From: Pseudonocardia hydrocarbonoxydans
GTDB taxonomy: Bacteria > Actinomycetota > Actinomycetes > Mycobacteriales > Pseudonocardiaceae
Assembly (NCBI RefSeq): GCF_006539565.1
Contig: NZ_BJNG01000016.1
Coordinates: 1-64,000, forward strand
Length of the DNA: 64,000 nucleotides
Reading direction: 5' to 3'
A program made the translations under genes and the position numbers. The notes beneath the pieces are model-generated. The model did no database searches. It worked only from the letters and a program-made list of their open reading frames with translations, and had not been told where the DNA came from. Of this stretch, positions 16,293 to 46,778 are shown one piece after another (the stretch's first letter is position 1; each line of letters starts with the position of its first letter).

Positions 16293-17231
16293 TCAGGGGA
16301 CGAGCACGACGCGGCCCCGTGCGGAGCCGTCGCCCTGGCGGGTCCAGGCGTCGGCGGCGTCGGCGAGGGGCACGCGCTCGTGGCGGACGGTGAGCTCGCC
16401 CGCCGCGGCGAACCGGGCGACCGCCTGCACGGCGTCGCGACGGCGGTCGGGGTCGAGCGAGTTGTTGGTGTAGCCGAGCACGTCGAGCGAGCGGCTGCGC
16501 AGCGTCGCCGAGTCGACCTCGACGGCCGGTGCGGCCGAGCCCCCGAGGTTCACCAGCCGCCCGCCGGGGCGCAGCGTCGACAGCGCGGCGGCGGCCGGGG
16601 CGCCCGCCAGCGGGTCGATCACCAGGTCCGCCCCGTCGCCGGTGGCGGCCGCCAGGCGCGCGGCCACGTCGTCGCCGTCGAGGACGACGGTCGCGTCGGC
16701 GCCGTGCGCGCGGGCCCGCTCCAGCGCGTCGCCCGACCGGGCGCAGGCGACGACCCGCCCCGCCCCGGCGAGCCGGGCGAGCTGCACGGCCGCCTCGCCG
16801 ACGACCCCGCCCGCCCCCAGCACGACCACCGTCTCCCCCGGCGCCAGCCGCCCGCGCCAGGTCAGGCACATCCAGGCCGCGACGGCGGACAGCCCCAGCG
16901 CGGCGACGAGCACCGGGTCGACGCCGGTCGGCAGCGCGACCACGTCGTCGGCGGTGACGCCCGCGCGCTGCGCCATGCTGCCGTCTCCGGGCGCCATGCC
17001 GGCCGGGGTCGCGAACCAGACCGGCGTGCCGTCGGCGAGCGCTCCCACGCCCTGCACCCCCGGGACGTAGGGCGTGGCGGGCGTCCCGAAGTACGACGTG
17101 CCGGTGGCGCAGAGCAGGTCGAGCGGGGTGATCGGCGCCGCGGTGACGTCGACGACGACCGCGCCCGCCGGCTCGGCCCGCTCCGCCACGACCGGCGACG
17201 AGCCCGGCGTGCGGATCTCCGCGGCCCGCAT
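16293..17231 (-). CDS. Zinc-less MDR-family oxidoreductase (quinone oxidoreductase-like)
   Basis: 312 residues; the ATG at 17231 overlaps the stop of the dioxygenase gene (ATGA). The GroES-like N-terminal part (ITPLDLLCATGTSYFG, VPGVQGVGALADGTPVWF) and the Rossmann part (TVVVLGAGGVVGEAAVQLAR, with Arg/Ser near CARSGDALERARAHGAD favouring NADPH) are complete. Catalytic and structural zinc ligands are absent, as in quinone or enoyl reductases. In this operon it may reduce the maleylacetate-like product of the ring-cleavage enzyme or another enone intermediate; this is inference. Confidence 0.8.
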   Translation of the reverse strand: MRAAEIRTPGSSPVVAERAEPAGAVVVDVTAAPITPLDLLCATGTSYFGTPATPYVPGVQGVGALADGTPVWFATPAGMAPGDGSMAQRAGVTADDVVALPTGVDPVLVAALGLSAVAAWMCLTWRGRLAPGETVVVLGAGGVVGEAAVQLARLAGAGRVVACARSGDALERARAHGADATVVLDGDDVAARLAAATGDGADLVIDPLAGAPAAAALSTLRPGGRLVNLGGSAAPAVEVDSATLRSRSLDVLGYTNNSLDPDRRRDAVQAVARFAAAGELTVRHERVPLADAADAWTRQGDGSARGRVVLVP

Positions 17232-18088
17232 CAGCCCGGCTGGAGCACGAAGTCGTAGCGGGCCTCCAGCCACGGCACGTCGCTGCGGCCGCCGTCCGGC
17301 GTGGGGCCGGGCCCGCGCTCGTCGAACGCCACCACCAGCTCGGGCTTGGTGCCGAACACCACGTCGCTGTCGAGGTACTGCGCGCCGTCCTGGAACAGGT
17401 GCGTGATCAGCGGCTCGAAGCCGGGCACGGCGAGCAGGAAGTGCACGTGGGCGGGCCGGTAGTGACTGATCGCGGTCTGCGAGATCAGCTCGCCGACGGG
17501 GCCGTCCATCGGGATCGCGTAGCCCAGCGGCGCGATCGTGCGCAGGCAGTAGCTGCCGTCGGCGCGGGAGGTGTACTTCGCGCGCAGCCGGGCCTCGTCG
17601 ACGGGCAGCTGGGCCTCGTAGGCGCCGTCGGAGTCGGCCTGCCACACGTCGAGCACCGCGCCGCCGACCGGCGAGCCGTCCAGCGACCGGACCTTGCCGT
17701 GGACGTAGAGCGGCGTGCCCGGCAGGCCCTGCGACATGTCCCCGCCGAACCCCAGCTCGGGCGAGCCGTCGATGTGGAACGGGCCGAGCACCGTCGCCGG
17801 GGTGGCGGCCGCGTCGAGGTCGTGGTTCATCTGCACGACCAGCATCGAGAGCCCGAGCACGTCGGAGGCCAGGATGAACTCCTCGCGCTTGTCGTCGCTG
17901 ATCTGCCCGGTGGCGGTGAGCCACTGCACCGCGGCCATCCACTCGGCCTCGGTGAGCCGCACCTCGCGGGCGAAGTCGTGCAGGTGCCGGACCAGCGCCG
18001 TGAGGATCTCGCCGGTGCGCGGGTCCTTCGCGGTGCCCCAGCGGGAGACGGCCAGGTCGGTGATGGTGTCCTCGGTGACGGCGTCCAT
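17231..18088 (-). CDS. Intradiol ring-cleavage dioxygenase, hydroxyquinol 1,2-dioxygenase type
   Basis: 285 residues. The N-terminal helical linker domain (to about 100) is followed by the catalytic beta-sandwich: GTPLYVHGKVRSLDGSPVGG, VLDVWQADSDGAYEAQ, ISHYRPAHVHFLLAVPGFEP. The non-haem Fe(III) ligands would be Y157, Y190, H214 and H216, which matches the spacing of characterised hydroxyquinol dioxygenases. The reaction is insertion of O2 between vicinal hydroxyls of an aromatic ring, here most likely hydroxyquinol to maleylacetate. It is the third gene of the operon, 1 bp after the lyase gene. A maleylacetate reductase of the usual iron-ADH type is not present nearby. Confidence 0.85.
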   Translation of the reverse strand: MDAVTEDTITDLAVSRWGTAKDPRTGEILTALVRHLHDFAREVRLTEAEWMAAVQWLTATGQISDDKREEFILASDVLGLSMLVVQMNHDLDAAATPATVLGPFHIDGSPELGFGGDMSQGLPGTPLYVHGKVRSLDGSPVGGAVLDVWQADSDGAYEAQLPVDEARLRAKYTSRADGSYCLRTIAPLGYAIPMDGPVGELISQTAISHYRPAHVHFLLAVPGFEPLITHLFQDGAQYLDSDVVFGTKPELVVAFDERGPGPTPDGGRSDVPWLEARYDFVLQPG

Positions 18089-18089
18089 C

Positions 18090-18878
18090 TCAGCTTCCTC
18101 GGTAGGGGTCGGGGTCGACGGAGGTGTTGTTCAGGTCCACCGACAGGAAGATGTCGTTCCCGACGGGGTGGCGCAGCTCCTCGGCGAGCTGCCCGATCAG
18201 CCCGGCCGTGCGGGCCAGCAGCGCGAACCCGCGCAGCAGCTCCAGCGGCAGCCCGAGGTCGGCGAGCGCGGCGCCGCAGACGCCCGCGCCGTTGAGCGGC
18301 AGGGTCTTCCCCAGCACCTCGGGGTGCACGCGCCCGATCGCGGCGAACAGCGACAGGTGCGGGCCGTAGAGCCCCTCCTCGGCCGCGATGGCGAACAGCC
18401 GCGGGGTGCGCGGGTCGCCCTGCTTGTGCACGTGGTGGCCCAGGCCCGGCACGAACCGCTTCGCCGCCCGCTGCGCGCGCACGATCTCCAGCGCCAGCGC
18501 GTCCCAGCCCGCGTCGTCGACGGGATGCTCGGCGGGGAGGTGGGAGTGCAGGAACCGGCCGCAGTCCTCGGTGACGCCCAGGAACCGGGAGCCGCCGCCG
18601 AGCAGGCCCGCGGCGAGCGCGCCCTGCACGGAGTCCGGGGCGCTGAGGTAGGTCAGCCGGGTGACGATGGCGGTCGGGGTGAACCCGTGGTCGGCCAGCG
18701 CGGCCAGCACGGCCTCGAACACGCGCGTCTCGCCCGGCGTCGGGCGGCGCTGGGTGGCCAGCCAGAACGCCAGCTCGCCGAACCCGACGGTGCCCATGAC
18801 GTCCTCGGCGAGGTCGTGGCCGAGCAGGGTGATCGTGTTCAGGGACGAGGCGCCGAGCGCGGTGGGGTACTCAGGCAT
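18090..18878 (-). CDS. Citrate synthase-like protein, citryl-CoA lyase type
   Basis: 262 residues, much shorter than citrate synthase (about 430) and corresponding to its core. Visible are NTITLLGHDLAEDVMGTVGF, VPGLGHHVHKQGDPRTPRLF with the His/Asp cluster, and PLNGAGVCGAALADLGLPLE. Such short forms are annotated citryl-CoA lyases and cleave or form a C-C bond between a 3-hydroxy-3-carboxyacyl-CoA and acetyl-CoA. It overlaps the CoA-transferase gene by 8 nt. Together they suggest activation of a tertiary hydroxy-acid or tricarboxylate to its CoA ester and cleavage to acetyl-CoA plus an oxo-acid. Confidence 0.75.
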   Translation of the reverse strand: MPEYPTALGASSLNTITLLGHDLAEDVMGTVGFGELAFWLATQRRPTPGETRVFEAVLAALADHGFTPTAIVTRLTYLSAPDSVQGALAAGLLGGGSRFLGVTEDCGRFLHSHLPAEHPVDDAGWDALALEIVRAQRAAKRFVPGLGHHVHKQGDPRTPRLFAIAAEEGLYGPHLSLFAAIGRVHPEVLGKTLPLNGAGVCGAALADLGLPLELLRGFALLARTAGLIGQLAEELRHPVGNDIFLSVDLNNTSVDPDPYRGS

Positions 18879-20025
18879 CGGTGTCTCCCGGCGACGACAG
18901 CCACTTCCGCAGCTCCGCGCCGTGCTCGTCCAGCTCCGGCGGGGGCAGGCGGTAGGACGCCGGGGTGGCCGAGAAGCGGATCGGGTGCCGGGTCGTCGGC
19001 ACCGCGCGGTCGCCCTCGCCCACCTCGACGACCGGGTCGAGCCCGAAGCGCTGCGCCATCGCGAACCCGCCGTCGATGCTCTGGATCGGCCCGCACGGCA
19101 CCCCGACCGCGGTGAGCGCCTCGAACCAGTCGACGGCGCCGCGGGTGGCCAGGCGCTCCTCCAGCAGCGGCCGCAGCTCCTCGCGGTTGCGCGTCCGGTC
19201 GGCGTTGCGGGCGAAGCGCGGGTCGTCGGGCACCTCGGGGATGCCCAGCACCTCGCAGAGCCTGCGGAACTGCCCGTCGTTGGCCGCGGCGACGATCAGG
19301 TCGTCGTCGGCGGTGGGCAGCGGTTCGTAGGGGAAGACGCTGGGGTGCGCGTTGCCCATCCGCGTCGGCACCACCCCGCCCGCGACGTAGGCCGAGCTGT
19401 GGTTGACCAGGCCGGTGAGCGCCGAGGACAGCAGGTTGACCTCGACGTGCTGGCCCTCCCCCGTCGCGTCCCGGTGCCGCAGCGCGGCCAGGATGCCGAT
19501 GACGGCGTGGTTGCCGGCCATCACGTCGAACACCGAGATGCCCGCGCGGTAGGCCGGTCCGTCCGGGGAGCCGGTGAGGCTCATCAGGCCCGAGATCGCC
19601 TGCACCATGAGGTCGTAGCCGGGCACGTGGGCGCCCGCGCCCGAGCCGAAGCCGGTGATCGAGGCGTACACGACCGCCGGGTTCACCGCGCTGACGCCGG
19701 CGTGGTCGAGCCCGTACTTCGCCAGCCCGCCCGGCTTGAAGTTCTCGATCACGACGTCGGCGCGGCGGGTCAGCTCGCGGGCCACGGCGGCGTCGGCCTC
19801 GTCACGCAGGTCGAGCGCGATCGACCGCTTCCCGCGGTTGATCCCGAGGTAGTAGGTGGAGGTCTCGCCGCGGACCGGCGGCATCCAGGTGCGCGTCTCG
19901 TCGCCCTGGGGACTCTCGACCTTGACGACCTCGGCCCCCATGTCGGCCAGCAGCATCGTGGCGTACGGCCCGGCGAGCACCCGGGAGAGGTCGGCGACCA
20001 GCACCCCCGCCAACGGTCCCGTCAT
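18871..20025 (-). CDS. CaiB/BaiF family (class III) CoA-transferase
   Basis: 384 residues. Family features: VLVADLSRVLAGPYATMLLA, DMGAEVVKVESPQGDETR, NRGKRSIALDL, VVIENFKPGGLAKYGL and VPGYDLMVQAISGLMSLTG. The catalytic Asp that forms the acyl anhydride is probably D167 in AGISVFDVMAGNHAV. It moves CoA from a donor thioester to the pathway acid. It is the first gene of the operon. Its start at 20025 lies 22 bp from a CGGACA-TG-TGTCCG dyad that also occurs, with other spacing, beside the IclR gene, so IclR control is likely. Confidence 0.9.
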   Translation of the reverse strand: MTGPLAGVLVADLSRVLAGPYATMLLADMGAEVVKVESPQGDETRTWMPPVRGETSTYYLGINRGKRSIALDLRDEADAAVARELTRRADVVIENFKPGGLAKYGLDHAGVSAVNPAVVYASITGFGSGAGAHVPGYDLMVQAISGLMSLTGSPDGPAYRAGISVFDVMAGNHAVIGILAALRHRDATGEGQHVEVNLLSSALTGLVNHSSAYVAGGVVPTRMGNAHPSVFPYEPLPTADDDLIVAAANDGQFRRLCEVLGIPEVPDDPRFARNADRTRNREELRPLLEERLATRGAVDWFEALTAVGVPCGPIQSIDGGFAMAQRFGLDPVVEVGEGDRAVPTTRHPIRFSATPASYRLPPPELDEHGAELRKWLSSPGDTDA

Positions 20026-20046
20026 GCACCCTCCTCGTCCGTTGAG

Positions 20047-20060
20047 CGGACATGTGTCCG
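20047..20060. promoter_or_regulatory. Putative IclR operator before the CoA-transferase operon
   Basis: CGGACA-TG-TGTCCG, a dyad with 6-bp arms, 22 bp upstream of the CoA-transferase start. A second GTCCG half-site precedes it at 20037. The same half-site word recurs at 20935-20951 and 21048-21061 around the IclR gene. Confidence 0.55.
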
Positions 20061-20100
20061 ATCGATCGTGAGTCTGCGCCGGGCCCCCGGTCCGGTCAAG

Positions 20101-20901
20101 TCAGGAGACCGCGACGTGCGGGACGTCCTGCACGCGTGCGAAGTCGGCGCTGATGTCGCCCGCCGCCTGCAGCAGCAGCGGGAGGTGGTGCTCGAGCAGG
20201 CGCTCCACCGGCGTCTCGGCCGCGTGGCAGTTGACGTTGACCCCGGCGATCACGCGCCCGGACCCGTCGCGCAGCGGGGCGGCGACGGAGCGGATGCCGA
20301 GCGCGAGCTGCTCGTCGGTGAGCGCCCAGCCGCGGGCCCGGACCTCGCGCAGCGCGGCGTCGCGCTCGGCGCGGTCGGGCTGCCAGCGCGGCACCAGCCC
20401 GGAGCGGGTCGGCTGCGCGAGCACGGCGTCGAGCTCGTCGGGGGCCAGCGCCGCGAGCTGCACCTTGCCCAGCGACGTCGACAGCGCCGGGAACCGGGTG
20501 CCGATCTGCACGGTCAGGGAGACGATCTTGGGCACCGAGACCCGGGCGACGTAGACGATGTCGGAGCCGTCGAGCTGGGCGATCGAGCACGACTCGCGGG
20601 TGCGCGCGACCAGCCGCTCCAGGTGCGGCCGGGCGACCTCCCACAGGCCCGTCGACCGCACGTAGGCGACACCGAGGTCGAGCACCCGCGGCGTCAGGGC
20701 GTACCCCCGCTCGCCCGCGCGCACGTAGCCGAGCTCCTCGAGCGTCAGCAGGATCCGCCGCGCGGTCGGCCGGGCGAGCCCGGTGGCCGTCGCGACCTCG
20801 GCGAGCGTCATCGACGGGTGGTGCGGGCGGAAGGCGGCGATGACCTCCAGCCCGCGGGCGAGGGCCTCGATGAAGTCCGGGCCGGTTCCCTCACGGGGCA
20901 T
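20101..20901 (-). CDS. IclR-family transcriptional regulator (PcaR/PobR-like)
   Basis: 266 residues from ATG 20901. The winged HTH (about 8-75) reads FIEALARGLEVIAAF, then MTLAEVATATGLARPTARRI and LGYVRAGERGYALTPR. The effector domain includes VARPHLERLVARTRESCSIA and SLGKVQLAALAPDELD, and ends with GRVIAGVNVNCHAAETPVER. The DFIEALARGLEVIAAF start is that of aromatic-pathway regulators such as PcaR/PobR. It sits between the catabolic operon (same strand) and the divergent amidohydrolase. The shared dyads suggest that it controls both and itself. Confidence 0.9.
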   Translation of the reverse strand: MPREGTGPDFIEALARGLEVIAAFRPHHPSMTLAEVATATGLARPTARRILLTLEELGYVRAGERGYALTPRVLDLGVAYVRSTGLWEVARPHLERLVARTRESCSIAQLDGSDIVYVARVSVPKIVSLTVQIGTRFPALSTSLGKVQLAALAPDELDAVLAQPTRSGLVPRWQPDRAERDAALREVRARGWALTDEQLALGIRSVAAPLRDGSGRVIAGVNVNCHAAETPVERLLEHHLPLLLQAAGDISADFARVQDVPHVAVS

Positions 20902-20934
20902 GCGACACCTCCTGTGCAGCAGCGTAGCCTCCGC

Positions 20935-22924: not shown

Positions 22925-23024
22925 CGCAGGTGGCGCGTCCGCTCCCCAGCGACGCGCAAGTGGTTGCCGCAGGACCATTCGCTCGCCGTTGCCCGTTCGT
23001 TACACCGGCGGCCAGACTGGCGTG

Positions 23025-24041
23025 ATGGCCGACCCGATCCCCGTCCTGTCGCTCGCCGGTGCGCGTGGCGCCGACGGCCGCTTCGACCCCGCCTTCCTCG
23101 ACGGGCTCCGCGGTGCCCTGCACGAGGTGGGCTTCGCCCAGCTCACCGACTACGGTTCGGCGCCGGGCCAGGTCGAGGACCTCACGGCGCTGTGCGACCG
23201 GTTCTTCGCGCTGCCCGCGGCCGACCGGCTGGCCCTGGACAACCGACGGTCACCGCACTTCCGCGGCTACACCCGGCTCGGCCACGAGATCACCGCGGGG
23301 CACCCGGACGCCCGCGAGCAGCTCGACTTCGCCCCCGAACAGGCGCCGCGCCCCGCCGGATCGTGGGACGCGCCGTTCCGGTTGCTGGAGGGCCCGAACC
23401 AGTGGCCCGCGGCCCTGCCCGAGCTGCGGCCGGCGGTGCTCGCGTGGACCGACCTGCTCGGGCGCGTCGGCACCGAGCTGACCCGCGCGATCGCCGCCTG
23501 TCTCGGGCTCGCCGAGGACCACTTCGACCCGCAGTTCCGCGGCGGCCCGCACTGGTTCGGCAAGATCATCCGGTACGTCGGGGCCCACGGTGACCGGCAG
23601 GGGGTCGGCCCGCACGCCGACTGGGGCTTCCTCACCCTGCTGCTGCAGGACACGACGGGCGGGCTGCAGGCGCGCCTGCCGCGGACGCACGAGTGGGTGG
23701 ACGTGCCGCCCCTGCCCGGGGCGCTCGTCGTCAACATCGGGGAGATGCTGGAGGTCGCCACCCACGGCTACCTCGCCGCCACCGTGCACCGGGTGCTGCC
23801 CTGCCCGCCGGGCGGCACCCGGCAGTCGGTCGGGTTCTTCTGGTCACCCCGGCTCGACGCCACGCTGGAGCCCGTCCCCCTGCCCCCCGAGCTCGCGGCC
23901 GAGGCGCCGGGCGTCACGGAGAGCGAGCACAACGCCCTGCTCCCCCGGTTCGGCGACAACGCCCTCAAGGGCTGGTTCCGGTCCCACCCCGAGGTGGCGG
24001 CGCGGCACCACGCGGAGCTCATGGAGGAGCTGGGCCGGTAG
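23025..24041 (+). CDS. Isopenicillin N synthase-family Fe(II)/2-oxoglutarate-type oxygenase
   Basis: 338 residues. The N-terminal DIOX_N part (PIPVLSLAGARGAD, GALHEVGFAQLTDYG, LPAADRLALDNRRSPHFRGY) and the double-stranded beta-helix core are present. The iron triad is H197 and D199 in GVGPHADWGFLTLLLQD plus H255 in ATVHRVLP. R266 in GGTRQSVGFFW is placed to bind 2-oxoglutarate. Bacterial members oxidise diverse small molecules and are not restricted to beta-lactam biosynthesis; no beta-lactam genes are nearby. It is probably monocistronic, ending in a convergent repeat-filled junction. Confidence 0.85.
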   Translation: MADPIPVLSLAGARGADGRFDPAFLDGLRGALHEVGFAQLTDYGSAPGQVEDLTALCDRFFALPAADRLALDNRRSPHFRGYTRLGHEITAGHPDAREQLDFAPEQAPRPAGSWDAPFRLLEGPNQWPAALPELRPAVLAWTDLLGRVGTELTRAIAACLGLAEDHFDPQFRGGPHWFGKIIRYVGAHGDRQGVGPHADWGFLTLLLQDTTGGLQARLPRTHEWVDVPPLPGALVVNIGEMLEVATHGYLAATVHRVLPCPPGGTRQSVGFFWSPRLDATLEPVPLPPELAAEAPGVTESEHNALLPRFGDNALKGWFRSHPEVAARHHAELMEELGR

Positions 24042-24152: not shown

Positions 24153-25118
24153 TCAGCCCAGCACCTCCCGCAGCCGCTCGTCACGGGCCCGGCGCTCGGC
24201 CCGCAGCGCGAGCGCGCCGTCGAGGTCGACCTCCACGAACCGGGTGCGGGTGCCGGGGGCGGACTGGGCGACCACGTCGAGGTCACCGGACAGCACCGTG
24301 GCCACCATCATGTAGCCGCCGCCGGAGACCGCGTCGCGGTGCAGCACGATCGGCTCCACGCTGCCCGGCACCTGGATGGAGCCGATCGGGTAGGGCGCGT
24401 CGACGATGTTGGACGGGTCCTGCCCGGCCCCGAACGGCGGCTCCCGGTCCACCGTCTCCAGCGTCGCGCCGGAGTAGCGGAACCCGATCCGGTCGGCCAC
24501 GGGGGTGAGCTTCCAGGTGGTGTCGAGGAACGTGGCCCGGCCGTCGCGGGACAGGCGGTGGTCGTAGAGGCCCATCATCACCCGGACCTCGACGTCCTTG
24601 GAGTAGGTCGTGCGGAGGTCGGCGGGCACGCTGCGCCCCGCGGTGCCCGTGCCGGAGCCGACCGGCAGGACGTCGCCCTCGGCGAGCGGGCGCCCGGAGA
24701 ACCCGCCCAGCGCGCCGAGACCGTAGGTGGAGCGGCTGCCCAGCACCACCGGCACGTCGACGCCGCCGGACACCGCGACGTAGGCGCGGGCGCCGCCGGT
24801 GAGGTAGGCGAACGACAGCACGTCACCGGCGTCGACGGCGAAGGACTCCCACTGCGGGCGCTCCTCGCCGTTGACCTTCGGCACCATGGCCGCGCCCGTC
24901 ACCGCGACGACGGCGGCCTCGGTGAACAGCAGCTCGGGTCCCATGTAGACGCACTCCAGGACCGCGTCGCCCTCGGCGTTGCCGACGAGCAGGTTGGCCG
25001 CGCGTAGGGAGTACTGGTCGAGCGCGCCCGACGGCGGGATGCCCAGGTCGTAGTAGCCGGTGCGGCCGGCGTCCTGGACGGTGGTGGAGAGACCGGGCTT
25101 GCGCACCTCGATGGTCAT
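24153..25118 (-). CDS. pxpC: PxpC-like biotin-dependent carboxyltransferase-family protein (5-oxoprolinase subunit C)
   Basis: 321 residues: IEVRKPGLSTTVQDAGRTGY, GIPPSGALDQYSLRAANLLV, VAVTGAAMVPKVNGEE, GGARAYVAVSGGVDVPVVLG and VLHRDAVSGGGYMMVATVLS are the KipA/PxpC signature. With PxpA and PxpB it forms the prokaryotic ATP-dependent 5-oxoprolinase, which opens pyroglutamate to glutamate. The start overlaps the pxpB stop (ATGA). It is the last gene of a six-gene operon that also carries a biotin carboxylase and carrier, so the substrate may be another lactam or amide. Confidence 0.85.
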   Translation of the reverse strand: MTIEVRKPGLSTTVQDAGRTGYYDLGIPPSGALDQYSLRAANLLVGNAEGDAVLECVYMGPELLFTEAAVVAVTGAAMVPKVNGEERPQWESFAVDAGDVLSFAYLTGGARAYVAVSGGVDVPVVLGSRSTYGLGALGGFSGRPLAEGDVLPVGSGTGTAGRSVPADLRTTYSKDVEVRVMMGLYDHRLSRDGRATFLDTTWKLTPVADRIGFRYSGATLETVDREPPFGAGQDPSNIVDAPYPIGSIQVPGSVEPIVLHRDAVSGGGYMMVATVLSGDLDVVAQSAPGTRTRFVEVDLDGALALRAERRARDERLREVLG

Positions 25119-25990
25119 GCGAGCACCTCCAGCAGGCGGGCGTTGTAGCCGTCGGGGTCGTCGAGGAACGGGGCCAGCGCGAACTCCACCGGCGCCTGCC
25201 GGATCCGGAACTCCTTCGCCTCCACCGAGGCGAGCAGGGTGTCGTACTCGTCGCGGTCGACGGGTCGGAACTTCACGATGTCACCGGGCCGGAAGAACAC
25301 CATGAAGTCGGTGAAGTCCGGCAGCGACTGCGTGGGGTCGTAGATCGGGGCGGGGGTGATGCCGAACATCTGGTAGCCACCCGCGCCGCGCACGGAGTAG
25401 ATGCAGGAGAAGCAGCCGCCGTAGCCGACCGTCTGCTTCGGGGTGTCGGTGCGCGGGCGCAGGTACTTCGGCACCACGATCTGCCGGTCGCGGGGCACCA
25501 TCTGGTACTTGAACGGCAGTCCCGCGACGAACCCGACCATCGAGGTGAACCACGGCGACCCGGAGTGCGCGGCGATGAACTCGTCCTCGGAGCCGTACCC
25601 GTTGATCCGCGCGGCGTAGGAGATGTCGGTGCCGTCGGGGTCCTGGTGGCGGTCGCGGAACCGCATCAGGGTCTCGGTGGTCCACGGGTCGCGGTAGAGC
25701 ACCGGGATCTCCAGGACGCGGGTGGGCAGCGCGACGTCGGTGGCGTCGCCGACCTGCTTCTCCAGGTCCTTCAGCTGCGCCATCAGCGCGTGCGGGTCGA
25801 GCACGTCGGGGTCGTAGCGCACCTGGTAGGACGCGTTGGCCGGGCAGATGTCGACCAGCCCGTCGGGGCGCTGCTCGCGCAGCGCGTTCGTGATCGCCAT
25901 GGCCCGGAAGTTGGCCTGCAGGCTCATCTCCTCGGCGAGCTCGACGAAGACGAACTCGTCACCGCCCCAGCTGTAGCGCGCTTCCGTCAT
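25115..25990 (-). CDS. pxpB: PxpB-like (5-oxoprolinase subunit B / KipI-like) protein
   Basis: 291 residues from ATG 25990, overlapping the biotin carboxylase stop. The second half has the family core: WFTSMVGFVAGLPFKYQMVP, TPKQTVGYGGCFSCIYSVRG and AGGYQMFGITPAPIYDPTQS. The N-terminal part (YSWGGDEFVFVELAEEMSLQ) follows the same family. It is longer than typical KipI/PxpB proteins of about 220-240 residues, with an insertion around residues 90-150 (VLYRDPWTTETLMRFRDR). That form is associated with the biotin-carboxylase-linked clusters. Confidence 0.8.
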   Translation of the reverse strand: MTEARYSWGGDEFVFVELAEEMSLQANFRAMAITNALREQRPDGLVDICPANASYQVRYDPDVLDPHALMAQLKDLEKQVGDATDVALPTRVLEIPVLYRDPWTTETLMRFRDRHQDPDGTDISYAARINGYGSEDEFIAAHSGSPWFTSMVGFVAGLPFKYQMVPRDRQIVVPKYLRPRTDTPKQTVGYGGCFSCIYSVRGAGGYQMFGITPAPIYDPTQSLPDFTDFMVFFRPGDIVKFRPVDRDEYDTLLASVEAKEFRIRQAPVEFALAPFLDDPDGYNARLLEVLA

Positions 25991-27321
25991 AGCCACTCCT
26001 CCAGCGTCCCGGTGTGGAACTCCCCCGCGGCGAACCACGGCTCGTCCAGCAGTGCCCGGTGCATCGACGTCGTCGTCGGCACCCCTTCGACCTCCAGCTC
26101 GGCCAGCGCGCGGCGCGAGCGGCGGATCGCCTCGTCGCGGTCGGCGCCCCAGACGATCACCTTGGCCAGCAGCGAGTCGTAGTACGGCGACACGGCCGAG
26201 TCGGACTCCAGCCAGGTGTCGCTGCGCACCCACGGCCCGGCCGGCAGGTGCACCCGCCCGACCTTCCCGGGCTGCGGCATGAAGCCCTTGTCCGGGTCCT
26301 CGGCGCAGATCCGGAACTCGATCGCGTGCCCGCGCGCGGCGATGTCGCCCTGCGCGAGCCGCAGCGGCTCCCCCGCGGCGATCCGCAGCTGCTCGGCCAC
26401 CAGGTCGACGCCCGTGACCAGCTCGGTGGTCGGGTGCTCCACCTGGATGCGGGTGTTCATCTCGATGAAGAAGTACTCGCCGGTCTCGTCGTCGACGAGG
26501 AACTCGACGGTGCCCGCACTGCGGTAGCCGCACTCCTGCGCCAGCCGCACCGCGGCGGCGGTCATCGCCTCGCGCACCTGCGAGCCGATCCCGGGGGCGG
26601 TGGCCTCCTCCACGACCTTCTGCCTGCGGCGCTGCAGCGAGCACTCCCGCTCGAACAGGTGCACGGCGTCGGACCCGTCGCCCAGCACCTGCACCTCGAC
26701 GTGCCGGGCCCGGCGGACGAACCGCTCCAGGTACATGCGGCCGTCGCCGAACGCGGTGGACGCCTCGCGCGAGGCCTGCGGGAACCCCTTCCGGAGCGCC
26801 GCCTCGTCCTCGACGACGCGGATCCCGCGCCCACCACCGCCCGCGGCGGCCTTGAGCATCACCGGGTAGCCGACCTCGTCCGCGGCCGCGACGGCCGCGT
26901 CGACGTCCTCGACACCGCCCGCCGTACCCGGCACGGTCGGGACGCCGGCGTCGCGCGCCACCTCCCGTGCGGCGACCTTGTCGCCCATCCGTTCGATCGT
27001 GGCGGCGTCCGGGCCGACGAAGGTGAGCCCGGCGTCGGCGACGGCCGCCGCGAACGACGCCCGCTCGGAGAGGAACCCGTAGCCGGGGTGCACGGCGTCG
27101 GCGCCGGCGTCCTTCGCCGCCGCGACCAGCGTGTCGACGACGAGGTAGCTCTTCGTCGCCTGCGACGGCCCGATGTGCACGACGTGGTCGGCGAGGCGCA
27201 CGTGCGGCGCGTCGACGTCGGCGTCGCTGTGCACGGCCACGGTCTCGATGCCCAGGTCGCGGGCGGCGCGGACGATCCGGACGGCGATCTCGCCGCGGTT
27301 GGCGACGAGCAGACGCCTCAT
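25987..27321 (-). CDS. Biotin carboxylase (AccC-like) in the Pxp operon
   Basis: 444 residues. N-terminal MRRLLVANRGEIAVRIVRAA; ATP-grasp loop MLKAAAGGGGRGIRVV (about 155-170); catalytic ECSLQRRRQKVVEEATAPG; FIEMNTRIQVEHPTTELVTG; C-terminal AIEFRICAEDPDKGFMPQPG. It carboxylates biotin on the carrier protein using ATP and bicarbonate. The start overlaps the carrier stop by 4 nt. No acyl-CoA carboxyltransferase gene follows; the positions are filled by PxpB and PxpC instead. The likely role is to pass activated carboxylate to that complex rather than to make malonyl-CoA. Confidence 0.85.
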   Translation of the reverse strand: MRRLLVANRGEIAVRIVRAARDLGIETVAVHSDADVDAPHVRLADHVVHIGPSQATKSYLVVDTLVAAAKDAGADAVHPGYGFLSERASFAAAVADAGLTFVGPDAATIERMGDKVAAREVARDAGVPTVPGTAGGVEDVDAAVAAADEVGYPVMLKAAAGGGGRGIRVVEDEAALRKGFPQASREASTAFGDGRMYLERFVRRARHVEVQVLGDGSDAVHLFERECSLQRRRQKVVEEATAPGIGSQVREAMTAAAVRLAQECGYRSAGTVEFLVDDETGEYFFIEMNTRIQVEHPTTELVTGVDLVAEQLRIAAGEPLRLAQGDIAARGHAIEFRICAEDPDKGFMPQPGKVGRVHLPAGPWVRSDTWLESDSAVSPYYDSLLAKVIVWGADRDEAIRRSRRALAELEVEGVPTTTSMHRALLDEPWFAAGEFHTGTLEEWL

Positions 27322-27563
27322 CCGGCCTCGATCACCGCGAGGACCTGCCCGGCGTCGACCTCGTCCTCGTTCTCGACGAGGAACTCCACGACCGTGCCCG
27401 CCTCCCCGGCCGGCACCTCGTGGAAGGACTTCATCACCTCGACCAGCCCGACGGTGTCGTCGGCGGCGACGGTCTGGCCGGCGTCGGTGAACAGGGGGCT
27501 GTCGGGGTCGGGGCGGCGGTAGAAGACACCGGGGATGGGCGAGACGACCTCGTGGCGGGCCAT
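27318..27563 (-). CDS. Biotin carboxyl carrier domain protein
   Basis: 81 residues, a single biotinyl/lipoyl beta-sandwich. The biotinylated lysine is K45 in GLVEVMKSFHEV, preceded by PGVFYRRPDPDSPLF as in short AccB-type carriers. The protein lacks the long N-terminal region of fatty-acid-synthesis AccB, in keeping with a dedicated carrier for the adjoining biotin carboxylase. It lies 9 bp after pxpA. Confidence 0.9.
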   Translation of the reverse strand: MARHEVVSPIPGVFYRRPDPDSPLFTDAGQTVAADDTVGLVEVMKSFHEVPAGEAGTVVEFLVENEDEVDAGQVLAVIEAG

Positions 27564-27572
27564 GCAGGACTC

Positions 27573-28295
27573 CTAGGACATGTGGGGGGCGAGTGCGGAC
27601 CGGACGGCCGTGGCCAGCTCGACCGCGTTGGGGGTGTCGGAATGCACGCAGACGCAGTCGGCGCGGACCGGGATCTCCGTGCCGTCGACGGCCGTGGCGA
27701 CGCCGTCGGTGACCGCCCGCACCGCCCGCTCGGCGGAGCGCTGCGGGTCGAAGGCCTCGTGCTTCCGGGTGATGATCAGCGAACCGTCGGGGCGGTAGTC
27801 GAGATCGGCGTAGTACTCGGAGATGAAACCGGCGTCCCGGGAGCCCCAGACCTGCTCGTGCACGGTGCCGGCCATGCCCATCAGCGGCACGCCGAACACG
27901 TCGGCGGCGTCGGCGATCGCGCCCGCCACCTCCTCGTCGCGCGCGGCCATGCCGTAGAGCGAGCCGTGCGCCTTGACGTGGTTGAGCTCCATGCCCTCCG
28001 AGCGCAGGAACGCCGCCAGCGCCCCCACCTGGTAGAGCACGGCCGCGGTCAGCTCGTCGCGGTCCATCTTCATCTCGCGGCGGCCGAAGCCCTCGCGGTC
28101 GGGCAGCGACGGGTGCGCGCCCACCCGCACCCCGTTGGCCTTGGCCAGCTTCACCGTGGAGGCCATCACCGTCGGGTCCGACGCGTGGAACCCGCAGGCC
28201 ACGTTGGCCAGCGTGATCAGCGGCATGAGGCCCTCGTCGTCGCCGCAGCGGTAGATCGAGAACGCCTCGCCCATGTCGCAGTTGATGTCGACCAT
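27573..28295 (-). CDS. pxpA: PxpA-like (LamB/YcsF family) 5-oxoprolinase subunit A
   Basis: 240 residues with the complete YcsF signature: [80 protein letters not shown] and [20 protein letters not shown]. The acidic and His residues in these motifs probably form the hydrolytic site for lactam opening. It starts 4 nt after the stop of the molybdenum hydroxylase gene, so it is co-transcribed with it. Confidence 0.9.
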
Positions 28296-28299
28296 CGCC

Positions 28300-30657
28300 C
28301 TATCCCCTGGCCTCCCGGATCGCGCGCCACACCCGCTGCGGCGTCGTCGGCATGTCGAGGTGCGTCACCCCGAGGTGGGCCACCGCGTCGATCACGGCGT
28401 TGACCACCGCGGGTGACGAACCGATCGCCCCCGACTCCCCGATGCCCTTGACGCCCATCGGGTTCGTCGGCGACGGCGTGACCGTAGCGCCGAGCTCGAT
28501 GTGCGGCAGGTCGGAGGCGGCGGCGAACTGGTAGTCGGCCAGCGTGGCGGTCGTGGGGTTGCCCTCGGCGTCGAACGTGGCCTCCTCGAACATGGCCTGC
28601 CCGATGCCCTGCGCGATGCCCCCGTGCAGCTGCCCGGCCACGATCTCGGGGTTGACGACGTGCCCGCAGTCGTCGACGGCGACGAACCGGCGGATCGTCG
28701 AGAACCCGGTCTCGGTGTCGACCTCCATCATGCAGATGTGGGTGCCGAAGGGCCAGGTGAAGTTGGGCGGGTCGAACGTGTTGTCCGCCGAGAGCAGCGG
28801 TTCCATGCCCTCGGGCAGGTTGTCGGCCAGGTAGGCGGCCATCGCCACCTCCTGGATCGTCACGCCCGCCTCGGTGCCGCCGACGGAGAACCGGCCGTTC
28901 TCGAAGGTCAGGTCGTCCTCGGAGGCCTCCAGCAGGTGCGCGGCGATCGCCCGCGCCTTGTCGACGACCTTGTGCGCGGCCAGGTGCACCGACACGCCCC
29001 CGACGGGCAGGCTGCGCGAGCCGTAGGTGTCCCGCCCGAAGGGGGCGACCGCGGTGTCGGAGTGCAGCACCTCGACGTCGTCGGGGTGCACGCCCAGCGC
29101 GTCGGCGGCGATCTGCGACCACGCCGTCTCGTGGCCCTGCCCGTGCGGCGACGTGCCCGTCACGACCTCGACCTTGCCGCTGACCAGCATCCGGACCGTC
29201 GCGGCCTCCCAGCCGCCGCTCTGCAGCCGCACGCCGGCCGCCACCTTCGACGGCGAGAGCCCGCCGCTCTCGGTGAAGTTGCCGATGCCGATGCCGAGCT
29301 GGACGACGTCGCCGGACTCGCGGCGCTGCTTCTGCTCGGCGCGCACGGCGTCGTAGTCGACCAGGCGCATCGCCTCGCGCATGCACGGCTCGTAGTCGCC
29401 GGAGTCGTACATGACCCCGGACGGGACGGTGCGGTTGTCCAGGAACTTCGGGTGCAGGTTGATCAGCCGGACCTCGGCGGCGTCCATGCCCAGCTCGCGC
29501 GCCAGGTCGTCCATGATCCGCTCGTGGGCGTAGGCCGCCTCGGAGCGCCCGGCGCCGCGGTAGGCGTCGGTGGGGGTGAGGTTGGTGAACACGCCCTTGC
29601 AGTCGAAGGAGTACGACCCGAAGTCGTAGAGCCCGCAGTAGGTGAACGCCCCGAACACCGCGATGCCCGGCGTGAGCAGCTGCAGGTAGGCGCCCATGTC
29701 GGCGAGCAGCTCCACCTTCATCCCGAGGATCTTGCCCTCGCTCGTTGCGGCCACCGCCATCTTCTGCACCTGGCCGCGGCCGTGGGTGGTGGCGACGTGG
29801 TGGTCCGAGCGGGTCTCGGTCCACTTGACCGGCTTCTTCAGCCGCCGGGCCAGCGCGAGGGCCAGCGCCTCCTCGGCGTAGACGTTGAGCTTGGCGCCGA
29901 ACCCGCCGCCGACGTCGGGCGCGATCACGCGCAGCTTGGAGTCGGGGATGCCGACGACCATCGCGCCGATGTCACGCAGGAAGTGCGGCACCTGGGTGGA
30001 GGAGTAGATCGTGAAGCCGCCGCCCACCGGGTCGGGGTTGACGAGCACCGCGCGCGGCTCCATCGGCGAGGGCAGCACCCGCTGCTGCAGGTACCGCCCC
30101 TCCACGACGACGTCGGCCTGCGCGAACGCCGCGTCGACGTCGCCGGTGGCCAGCGGCCAGGTGTAGCAGTGGTTGGTGCCCAGTCCCTCGTGGACCAGCG
30201 GCGCACCCGGCTCCAGCGCGGCCTCGACGTCGAACACGGCGGGCAGCGCCTCGTACTCGACCTCGATCAGCCCGATCGCATCCTCCGCCGTCGCCGCGTC
30301 GGTGGCCAGCACGACCGCCACCCCGTCGCCGACGTGGTTGACCTCGTCGACGGCCAGCGGCGGGTGGTCGGGGATCTTGATGTCCTCGGTGACCGGCCAG
30401 CCGCAGGGCAGCCCGATGGCGAACTCGGAGGCGAGGTCGGCGCCGGAGAACGCGGCCACGACACCCGGGAGCGCCAGCGCGGCCGTGAGGTCGACCCCGG
30501 TGATCCGGGCGTGCGCGAGCGGGCTGCGCAGCACGGCGAGGTGCAGCGCTCCGGGGATCGCGATCCCGTCGGTGAACGTGCCCTGACCGGTGATCAGTGC
30601 GGCGTCCTCGCGCCGGGGGATGCTCTGTCCGACGAACTTCTCGGCTGTCGCGGTCAC
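28300..30657 (-). CDS. Molybdopterin-binding large subunit of a xanthine dehydrogenase/CO dehydrogenase-family hydroxylase (form II)
   Basis: 785 residues. The active-site loop [18 protein letters not shown] (about 366) is the form II type, not the AYRCSFR of true CO dehydrogenase. The catalytic Glu lies in [13 protein letters not shown] (about 739). [18 protein letters not shown] and [13 protein letters not shown] supply the cofactor contacts. Such enzymes hydroxylate an electron-poor carbon, often next to nitrogen in heterocycles, using water and a Mo=O/S centre. Neither the 2Fe-2S nor the FAD subunit is encoded beside it, so partners must come from elsewhere. It heads the operon with pxpA, the biotin genes, pxpB and pxpC. 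Confidence 0.85.
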
Positions 30658-44421: not shown

Positions 44422-44447
44422 GATCTCGCCGCCTAGATCTCGCCGCC
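44422..44447. repeat. 12-bp direct repeat at a stop codon
   Basis: GATCTCGCCGCC occurs at 44422-44433 and 44436-44447, two nucleotides apart, so that the stop codon of the molybdenum hydroxylase gene (44433-44435) sits between the copies. The rest of the 51-bp convergent gap is plain GC-rich sequence. Confidence 0.7.
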
Positions 44448-46778
44448 CTGCGGGGCCGCCGCCCGCGCGCCGCGGACCGGCAGGGTGGCGAAGACCGCGG
44501 GCGGCTCCCGCCATGGGTCCGGCAGCGTGCCGGCCCGCGCGTCGCGGACCGCCCGCCACACCCGCTCGGGGGTGCAGGGCAGGTCGAGGTGCCGGACGCC
44601 GAGCGGGGCGAGGGCGTCGACCACCGCGTTCTGCACGGCCGGGGTGGCCCCGACCGTCGCCGACTCCCCGATCCCCTTGGCCCCCAGCGGGTTGAGCGGG
44701 GTCGGGGTCTCGGTGGTGGCGGTCTCGAAGGTGAACAGGTCGGCCGCGGTCGGCATCCGGTAGTCGGCGAGCGTGGCGGTGAGCGGCTGGCCGTCGGCGT
44801 CGAACACCACCTCCTCGTAGAGCGCCTGCGCGACGCCCTGGGCCAGGCCGCCGTGCTGCTGCCCGGTGACCAGCAGCGGGTTGAGCACCCGCCCGCAGTC
44901 GTCGACGGCGACGTGGCGCAGCGGCGTGACCTTCCCGGTCTCGGTGTCGACCTCCACCACCGAGACGTGCGCGCCGAACGGGAACGTGGCCCCGTCCTGG
45001 CGGAAGTCGAGCCCGGCGTGGATCTCGCGGTCGCCGACCACCTGCGCCCAGGTGAGGGTGACCCCTGGGACGCCGCTGACGCCGAACTCGCCGTCCTCGG
45101 TCAGCTCGACGTCGTCCTCGGCCGCCTCCAGCAGCGCCGCGGCCCGGCGACGGGCCTGCTCCAGCACGTCGTCGGCGGCGACGAGGACGGCGTTGCCGCC
45201 CAGCTGCAGCGACCGCGACCCGCCGGTGCCGCTCCCCCGCGGCACGGCCGCGGTGTCGGACTGGACGAAGGTGAAGCGCTCCATCGGGATGCCGAGGCGG
45301 TCGCTCGCGAGCATCGCGAACGCCGTGGGGTGGCCCTGGCCGTGCCCGGAGGTGCCCGCGGAGATCGTCGCGGTGCCGTCGGCGTGCACCGTGACCGAGC
45401 CGAACTCCGAGCCGCCACCGCCCGCGGTGATCTCGACGTAGACGGACACCCCGACGCCGAGCTGCACCGGGTCGCCGTTCTCGCGGCGGGTGGCCTGCTC
45501 CTCGCGCACCTTCTCGATGCCGACCAGCCGCAGCGCCTCGCGCAGCGGGAGGTCGTAGTCGCCGACGTCGTAGCGCGCGCCCGGGATCGTGGTGTGCGGG
45601 AAGCCGTCGGGGGCCAGCAGGTTGCGGCGGCGCAGCTCGACCGGGTCGATGCCCAGCTCGGCGGCGGCCATGTCCATGATCCGCTCCAGGTGGGCGGTGG
45701 CCTCCGGGCGGCCGGCGCCGCGGAACGCGCCCATCGGGGTGGTGGTCGTCAGCGCGACGGCGGCGTCGTAGCCGAGCTTCGGGATGTCGTAGACGCCCTG
45801 GCTCATCGTGTACGTCGGGCCGAGCGCGAGCGCGCCGCCGAACCCGGCGTAGGCCCCGGAGTCGGCGACGACCCGCGCCCGCAGGCCGGTGATCCGGCCC
45901 GCGCGGGTGAGCCCGAGCTCGTAGTAGGCGATCTGGCCGCGGCCGTGCGGCATCGAGACGAGGTTCTCCGAGCGGGTCTCGACCCAGCGCACCGGCCGCC
46001 CCAGCGCGCGGGCGACGGCGACGGCCGTGGTGTGCTCGGCGAGCATCCCGGCCTTGCCGCCGAAGCCCCCTCCGACGTGCGGGGCGATCACGCGCACCTG
46101 CTCGGGCTCCAGCCCGGACAGCGCGGCGGCCTGGGTGCGGAAGCCGTGCGGCATCTGGGTGGAGACCCAGATCGTGAGCTCGCCGTCCGGTTCGGGTCGC
46201 ACCGCGATCGCGTTGCCCTCCATCGGCATGACGGCGAGGCGCTGGTTGACCATCCGCGCCCGGACCACGACCTCGGCGTCGGCCAGCGGGTCGCCCTCGC
46301 TGCGGACCCCGCCCGCCAGGTTGTCGGAACGGCCCGGGTACTGCACCGGGGCCCCGGGGGCCAGCGCCTCCTCCGGGTCGACGGCGGCGGGCCGCGGGTC
46401 GTAGTCGACCTCGACGAGCTCGGCGGCGTCGACCGCCTCGGCCTGCGTGGACGCCACCACGACCGCGACGGCCTCGCCGACGAACCGCACGCGGTCGGTC
46501 GCCAGCGGGGGCCGCGGCAGATCGGGGTTGAGCACCATCAGCCCGTGGTGCGCGGGGAGGTCGAGGTCGGCCGCGGTGTACACGGCGACGACCCCGGGGG
46601 CGGCGGCCGCGGCGGCGGTGTCGACGCCGGTGACGTGGCCGTGGGCCAGCGGGGAGCGGACGAAGGTGAGGTGCAGCATCCCGTCGAGGCCGAGGTTGCC
46701 GACGTAGGTGCTCGCCCCGGTGATCAGGTCGAGGTCCTCGACCCGGCGGACGGAGGTACCGAGGATCGATCCAGGCAT
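44433..46778 (-). CDS. Second molybdopterin-binding large subunit, xanthine dehydrogenase/CO dehydrogenase family (form II)
   Basis: 781 residues, a paralogue of the hydroxylase encoded at 28300-30657. Active-site loop GAFRGAGRPEATAHLERIMD (about 350), catalytic Glu in LGAKGIGESATVG (about 704), cofactor contacts GGGFGGKAGMLAEHTTAVAV and GTSGHGQGHPTAFAML. The form II motif argues against CO oxidation. No FAD or 2Fe-2S subunit gene adjoins. Its neighbours are a convergent MFS gene and a divergent fumarase gene, so it appears to be transcribed alone and must borrow its electron-transfer subunits. Confidence 0.85.
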   Translation of the reverse strand: MPGSILGTSVRRVEDLDLITGASTYVGNLGLDGMLHLTFVRSPLAHGHVTGVDTAAAAAAPGVVAVYTAADLDLPAHHGLMVLNPDLPRPPLATDRVRFVGEAVAVVVASTQAEAVDAAELVEVDYDPRPAAVDPEEALAPGAPVQYPGRSDNLAGGVRSEGDPLADAEVVVRARMVNQRLAVMPMEGNAIAVRPEPDGELTIWVSTQMPHGFRTQAAALSGLEPEQVRVIAPHVGGGFGGKAGMLAEHTTAVAVARALGRPVRWVETRSENLVSMPHGRGQIAYYELGLTRAGRITGLRARVVADSGAYAGFGGALALGPTYTMSQGVYDIPKLGYDAAVALTTTTPMGAFRGAGRPEATAHLERIMDMAAAELGIDPVELRRRNLLAPDGFPHTTIPGARYDVGDYDLPLREALRLVGIEKVREEQATRRENGDPVQLGVGVSVYVEITAGGGGSEFGSVTVHADGTATISAGTSGHGQGHPTAFAMLASDRLGIPMERFTFVQSDTAAVPRGSGTGGSRSLQLGGNAVLVAADDVLEQARRRAAALLEAAEDDVELTEDGEFGVSGVPGVTLTWAQVVGDREIHAGLDFRQDGATFPFGAHVSVVEVDTETGKVTPLRHVAVDDCGRVLNPLLVTGQQHGGLAQGVAQALYEEVVFDADGQPLTATLADYRMPTAADLFTFETATTETPTPLNPLGAKGIGESATVGATPAVQNAVVDALAPLGVRHLDLPCTPERVWRAVRDARAGTLPDPWREPPAVFATLPVRGARAAAPQGGEI

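Follow-up and report, generated by a model that had tools for sequence, protein, structure and literature searches.

Here, we present an analysis of a six-gene operon on the minus strand (24153-30657) of a 64,000-nucleotide stretch of Pseudonocardia hydrocarbonoxydans DNA (hereafter, the window), which is part of a 303-kb contig in a genome of 5.29 Mb. Based on open reading frame (ORF) calls and family scans, the operon encodes a CoxL-type molybdenum (Mo) hydroxylase large subunit, a PxpA homolog, a biotin carboxyl carrier protein (BCCP), a biotin carboxylase (BC), and homologs of PxpB and PxpC, which make up a carboxyltransferase (CT). We put at about even the prospect that this operon is a two-stage catabolic module that would oxidize a nitrogen-containing ring to a cyclic amide and then open this amide by biotin-driven carboxylation. 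More importantly, two unrelated oxidizing enzymes, the hydroxylase and a soluble diiron monooxygenase, occupy the same slot before the biotin-Pxp genes, which is the strongest sign that these genes and an oxidation step belong to one pathway.

Results

From one scan of genome contigs for PxpC, we obtained 65 related loci. The genes for PxpA, BCCP, BC, PxpB, and PxpC are complete, in this order, and on one strand in 54 of them, which argues that the order of this five-gene unit is not due to chance. Among the 11 incomplete loci, six are cut by contig ends, four are of an Acidimicrobiia type without BC, and one is of the ordinary pxpABC type. The biotin lysine is retained in 87 of 87 carrier rows (these include repeat fetches of some genomes). 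The conserved unit and the retained lysine bear out the sequence-only reading in its assignment of a dedicated BC and BCCP to the Pxp set; the co-conservation of all six genes, which it had suggested as a check, holds for the five-gene unit, and the hydroxylase as the sixth gene is present in 17 of the 65 loci. In a tblastn search of plasmids with the PxpB-like protein, 568 records matched, and these were judged on the best 60 and on 60 spread rows. Among the matches listed, its own group, at 52-68% identity, comprises alpha- and betaproteobacteria and haloarchaea, and the next match below this group is at 33%.

The surroundings of the unit vary with the lineage. A divergent LysR gene precedes the five genes in all 13 annotated proteobacterial loci, and genes for a TorT-like protein and a sugar-type ABC transporter follow the unit in seven of them (six annotated and L092 by tblastn). 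The order differs in haloarchaea, where two loci (L160 and L162) contain the full set of five, but with BC read from the opposite strand, and the L161 stretch has PxpB, PxpC, and one BCCP only. In the four Acidimicrobiia-type loci (L053-L056), BC is missing and BioB follows PxpC; BioA- and BioF-like genes lie further downstream in L053, L055, and L056 (model-tested in L055 only, where BioF scored under the cut-off). True bioB adjoins several units, as does bioA in L055, and these neighbors are in line with a need of the unit for biotin. Judged from sequence, the predicted parts all fall into established families. The biotin-Pxp arrangement is also frequent among the loci read, where the genes are annotated as acetyl-CoA carboxylase, 5-oxoprolinase, or allophanate hydrolase.

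The hydroxylase is linked to this unit within the genus. We surveyed 60 Pseudonocardia genomes, counting as CoxL orthologs matches of at least 76% with E ≤1e-280. PxpB of the unit type was found in 40 genomes and a CoxL ortholog in 29, all of which have this PxpB (29/40 with PxpB versus 0/20 without; Fisher p = 2e-8, kinship ignored). The link is one-way: no CoxL ortholog occurs without the PxpB of the unit. The two genes lie at most 5 kb apart on one strand in 28 of the 29 genomes and on different contigs in the remaining one (G035). The 17 loci with CoxL are 15 from Pseudonocardia together with L022 and L024 (Pseudonocardiaceae bin). In one of the 13 proteobacterial loci, that of the betaproteobacterium Diaphorobacter, all three genes of a Mo hydroxylase lie downstream of the unit; this enzyme is of another subfamily and 29% identical to the operon CoxL. 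Thus, the proposed tie between the hydroxylase and the Pxp unit stands within the genus and, in the loci examined, is confined to Pseudonocardia and close kin.

Elsewhere, another oxidizing enzyme is found in this position. In 13 of the 65 loci, 12 of them outside Pseudonocardia, genes for a soluble diiron monooxygenase of the toluene-monooxygenase type occupy the slot before pxpA. The hosts are Amycolatopsis, Streptomyces, Saccharopolyspora, Haloechinothrix, one Pseudonocardia, and one Acidimicrobiia bin. The set comprises alpha, TmoB, effector, beta, reductase, and Rieske components (no reductase was found in L051 or L053) and ends 22-107 nt before pxpA; the alpha subunit is closest to toluene/o-xylene monooxygenase (ToMO; 734 bits). 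Three Pseudonocardia genomes (G013, G047, and G056) combine a CoxL module with a diiron module, one of each; the diiron module of G056 (L125) has a single, more divergent PxpA, which is located past PxpC.

A CT tree, built with a quick method from 109 rows (101 after removal of near-copies) and unrooted, places the CTs of the unit in one 92-row group (SH-like approximate likelihood ratio test, 100), apart from urea carboxylase and canonical PxpBC. One clade holds 25 rows with CoxL, five with no partner, and two with the monooxygenase, and the neighboring clade holds 13 with the monooxygenase and two with no partner. Overall, partner labels change 19 times on the tree versus a mean of 50 after shuffling, where "no partner" includes the unlabeled rows L144-L149 and L160-L162 (even though L147 has HyuA/HyuB), L151, L085, two extra CT pairs, and L045 and L048, which are cut by contig ends. 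Separately, we observed a second CT pair, more urea carboxylase-like and near a PucR gene, in the diiron-type loci L043, L047, L051, L125, L127, and L128; in some of these, the pair is partial, at the end of the stretch. These loci look as if two carboxylations shared one BC/BCCP.

Within the operon, in which all genes are on the minus strand, the gene for the hydroxylase large subunit (28300-30657; 785 aa, with an AYRGAGR loop) is followed by genes for the PxpA-like protein (27573-28295; 240 aa), a LamB/YcsF-type putative amide hydrolase, the BCCP (27318-27563; 81 aa, with the biotin site EVMKSF), the BC (25987-27321; 444 aa), the PxpB-like CT subunit (25115-25990; 291 aa, CT_C_D), and the PxpC-like CT subunit (24153-25118; 321 aa, CT_A_B). 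The junctions consist of one 4-nt gap, one 9-nt gap, and three 4-nt overlaps. We placed the start of the PxpB-like ORF at the ATGA overlap with BC; searches with this query used the ORF from 25993, which has one extra codon. The six ORFs, their families, and the spacing from a 4-nt overlap to 9 nt agree with what had been read from the sequence at first. Of the named organisms represented in the loci, Pseudonocardia oceani is the closest, with 92-94% for five of the six proteins and 91% for BCCP.

To which carboxylase family the unit belongs was judged from curated models. BC scores over PRK12833 (697.8 versus 686 bits) and BCCP over PRK07051 (124 versus 87 bits); with a BC, a BCCP that has the biotin lysine, and a CT, the unit qualifies as a predicted biotin-dependent carboxylase. 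PxpA exceeds the PxpA subfamily model NF003814 (278.3 versus 226 bits) and falls short of the equivalog PxpA models. The first naming of the CT subunits as PxpB and PxpC is not supported by the curated 5-oxoprolinase models: the PxpB-like protein misses TIGR00370 (78.1 versus 145.55 bits) and the PxpC-like protein misses NF045499 (190.7 versus 500 bits). Only TIGR00724, a broader domain model, is passed (251.5 versus 230.2 bits), and the NF045499 cut-off is strict because the PxpC of Limosilactobacillus also scores below it. The urea carboxylase model TIGR02712 is likewise missed: the genes are separate, each scores below 1303.85 bits, and PxpA takes the place of allophanate hydrolase. We rejected the placement beside urea carboxylase in the tree as proof of kinship, because the tree is unrooted with three groups and the group-specific residues are split. 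In Limosilactobacillus (L165), a PxpABC set comes with BC and BCCP, and its PxpB passes the canonical model; thus, the association with BC/BCCP occurs in two CT groups.

The best PDB matches of the hydroxylase are 8uem, 1ffu, 1n5w, and 1t3q; it is nearest to CO dehydrogenase CoxL and then to quinoline 2-oxidoreductase, with homology over the whole length. It retains the Glu of the GIGES motif and has the AYRGAGR loop where CO dehydrogenase chains carry a Cys. An identity as aerobic CO dehydrogenase was rejected, as the protein scores under the TIGR02416 cut-off (698.9 versus 991.15 bits) and has no Cys in the active-site loop. The genome has 10 matches each for FAD and iron-sulfur (Fe-S) subunits, none of which is on the 303-kb contig; ten large-subunit loci elsewhere have both, and neither partner is found at the two large subunits of the window or at weaker matches on contigs C43, C54, and C73. 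The hydroxylase is, thus, a large subunit alone rather than a three-subunit enzyme at this locus. The second of the large subunits in the window (44433-46778, minus strand) is also of CoxL type and solitary and is 46% identical to the operon hydroxylase; it has an EmrB-type transporter gene on one side and a class I fumarase gene on the other, on the same contig without FAD and Fe-S subunits.

Other neighbors of the operon were noted. A gene for a 2-oxoglutarate-Fe(II) oxygenase (22989-24041, plus strand) faces the operon and is also near the operon in L022, L124, and L130, which are close relatives. Further away (17231-20934, minus strand), genes for a PcaR/PobR-type IclR regulator, a class III CoA-transferase, a 262-aa protein, and an intradiol-dioxygenase-like protein (a label given by reading, not by scan) are grouped; this CoA-transferase/dioxygenase group was considered as an operon partner and dropped as unlinked, because it is grouped in only one of the 65 loci (L021).

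Discussion

We propose that the Mo hydroxylase would oxygenate the carbon beside the ring nitrogen of an N-heteroaromatic compound or a cyclic imine to give a cyclic amide. By homology, BC would use ATP and bicarbonate to form carboxybiotin on BCCP, the PxpB/PxpC-like CT would N-carboxylate the cyclic amide in the way that urea carboxylase acts on urea, and PxpA would hydrolyze the activated amide so that, with loss of CO2, an omega-amino acid is formed. Several neighboring genes point to such a product. A class III aminotransferase gene adjoins 9 of the 25 distinct CoxL loci fetched and is directly upstream (81-134 nt) in three. By best score, this aminotransferase is of the omega-aminotransferase type, under every curated cut-off; an identity as BioA was rejected (PRK07480, 376 bits; bioA, 291 bits; all under cut-off), while the aminotransferase of the Acidimicrobiia locus L055 is a true BioA. 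In 2 of the 13 annotated proteobacterial loci, those of Ruegeria and Aestuarium, the unit has genes for gamma-aminobutyrate (GABA) transaminase and succinate-semialdehyde dehydrogenase (SSADH) beside it, and class III aminotransferases adjoin it in two of three haloarchaeal loci. For the SSADH-like genes of Cryobacterium L058 and of the diiron loci L125 and L128, SSADH is the best-scoring model, with scores under its cut-off, and we regard them as weak evidence. Together, the replacement by a diiron enzyme and the aminotransferases beside hydroxylase loci favor oxidation followed by opening of a lactam-like ring.

In a wider version of this proposal, which we hold as possible and a little short of evenly balanced, the unit would be a general, as yet undescribed system for opening stable lactam-like rings, with carboxybiotin made by BC/BCCP, a third type of KipI/KipA-like CT, cleavage by PxpA, and interchangeable oxidizing front ends. 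An orphan Mo hydroxylase or a diiron monooxygenase would make the ring amide from different heterocycles.

Several observations weigh against oxidation followed by lactam opening. First, 11 of the 40 genus genomes with PxpB have no CoxL match at the threshold used. Among these, G001 is of the diiron type; G002 (L132) has lost CoxL, PxpA, BCCP, and the first part of BC, so that a PucR gene is followed by the rest of BC, PxpB, and PxpC; a contig end interrupts CoxL in G005 and also cuts G057; the PxpB of G009, G011, G025, and G051 is divergent (52-54%) and, in G051, was recovered as two pieces; and G007, G034, and G045 have no recognized oxidizing partner beside PxpB. Second, 48 of the 65 loci are without CoxL. 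A Pxp set without the hydroxylase in relatives had been named at the outset as what would speak against the link, and the outcome is mixed. Third, we took 14 FAD and Fe-S domains encoded in other operons of this genome as tblastn queries, and neither subunit was matched in the window or in 28 CoxL stretches from 25 distinct genomes, and the three controls were positive (in L023, the contig ends inside CoxL). The FAD and Fe-S subunits are probably supplied in trans from elsewhere in the genome; the first candidate source is the C25 operon, whose large subunit shows 54% identity. Fourth, there is no aminotransferase gene beside the operon studied here, and the best relative in this genome is at 39%; GABA and aminotransferase neighbors are a minority among the loci. 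Fifth, the group-specific residues of the CT are split between urea carboxylase and 5-oxoprolinase (PxpB, 8 versus 6 sites; PxpC, 3 versus 4). Finally, among the entries listed in our searches of the open-licence literature, we found no functional test of a biotin-Pxp unit. Altogether, the original idea that the operon oxidizes an N-heterocycle and then opens the amide is supported in part: the link to the hydroxylase, the BC/BCCP pair, biotin synthesis genes beside some relatives, and an oxygenase in the same slot speak in favor, and a hydroxylase without partner subunits speaks against.

The substrate could instead be a ring of the urea or imide type, such as hydantoin, imidazolone, or an allantoin-like compound, with carboxylation of a ureido nitrogen in the manner of urea carboxylase and cleavage of the ring by PxpA. 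The PxpB- and PxpC-like proteins reach more bits with the urea carboxylase model than with the Pxp models (116.7 versus 78.1 and 238.1 versus 190.7 bits, respectively), and several diiron clusters have the urea carboxylase-like second CT pair. PucR-like regulators are near 40 of the 65 units, HyuB is near 10 of the 65, HyuA/HyuB are near 2 of the 13 annotated proteobacterial units, and several units have a membrane protein 43% like a gene product annotated as allantoin permease; these neighbors suggest that rings resembling hydantoin or allantoin are the substrates, either in place of lactams or in addition to them. The aminotransferase and GABA genes beside other units and the split residue test argue against such a substrate, which we consider unlikely.

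It is more doubtful that the Mo enzyme acts after ring opening, on the aldehyde that an aminotransferase would form from the omega-amino acid. The second-best model of the hydroxylase is glyceraldehyde dehydrogenase alpha (626 bits versus a cut-off of 790), and the aminotransferase is directly upstream in three distinct loci, as this role would have it. However, a diiron monooxygenase takes the place of the hydroxylase, and we know of no diiron monooxygenase that oxidizes aldehydes; moreover, SSADH-like genes under the cut-off accompany two diiron modules instead. Least probable, in our view, is a biotin-assisted 5-oxoprolinase with the hydroxylase as a passenger: the family names and the BC/BCCP beside a canonical-model PxpB set in Limosilactobacillus would fit, but another pxpA-pxpB-pxpC set is present in the genome, on contig C37, the curated PxpB and PxpC cut-offs are missed, and the hydroxylase link within the genus is one-way.

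If oxidation followed by biotin-driven lactam opening is correct, a biotin-driven lactam opener would be common to actinobacteria, proteobacteria, and haloarchaea, and many genes now named as acetyl-CoA carboxylase, 5-oxoprolinase, or allophanate hydrolase would have to be renamed. Omega-amino acids would also become accessible by a new enzymatic route, and ring amides would join the substrates of biotin carboxylases. Five- and six-membered lactams are resistant to hydrolysis. Split CT genes have been remarked on before, without functional data (PMC3199775), and OplAB is reported not to be effective on gamma-butyrolactam, a molecule left to future biological tools (PMC11033972).

The two-step plan as such has a precedent. 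In anaerobic degradation of indoleacetate, hydroxylation by a Mo enzyme to a lactam is followed by ATP-driven lactam opening; the ring-opening enzyme is of another, hydantoinase-like family and uses no biotin. Among the entries listed in searches of the open-licence literature for precedents in indoleacetate and N-methylpyrrolidone degradation, there was no test of a unit such as the one described here. Thus, the claim that the two-step system is undescribed stands for the biotin-Pxp unit in that literature and gives way for the general plan. The OplAB and CapAB lactamases are reported to open lactams in an ATP- and bicarbonate-dependent manner (PMC11033972, PMC8453981), which is akin to the chemistry proposed here; they belong to the hydantoinase/oxoprolinase family, are unrelated to the unit, and use no biotin. 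CO dehydrogenase and quinoline 2-oxidoreductase are whole-length homologs of the hydroxylase, and the FAD and Fe-S subunits of such enzymes are absent beside the operon. The alternative module resembles toluene/o-xylene monooxygenase in its alpha subunit; it is placed ahead of the biotin unit in other lineages and is absent from this window.

The closest comparisons are with 5-oxoprolinase and urea carboxylase. In E. coli, B. subtilis, and C. glutamicum, the PxpABC 5-oxoprolinase likewise has its PxpA, PxpB, and PxpC homologs in one operon, and C. glutamicum is reported to grow on 5-oxoproline with pxpTABC (PMC13274462). Unlike this enzyme, the unit has its own BC and BCCP; annotated plasmid pxpB genes, among the matches listed, are 23.5-30.1% identical to the operon PxpB, compared with 52-68% in its own group. 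Urea carboxylase, which N-carboxylates urea to allophanate (PMC3199775), and urea amidolyase likewise combine BC, BCCP, and a homologous CT, and the unit is expected to follow the same logic of N-carboxylation and then hydrolysis. Annotated uca genes, among the matches listed, are 26.8-30.9% identical to the operon PxpB; unlike in urea amidolyase, the genes of the unit are split, and PxpA replaces allophanate hydrolase.

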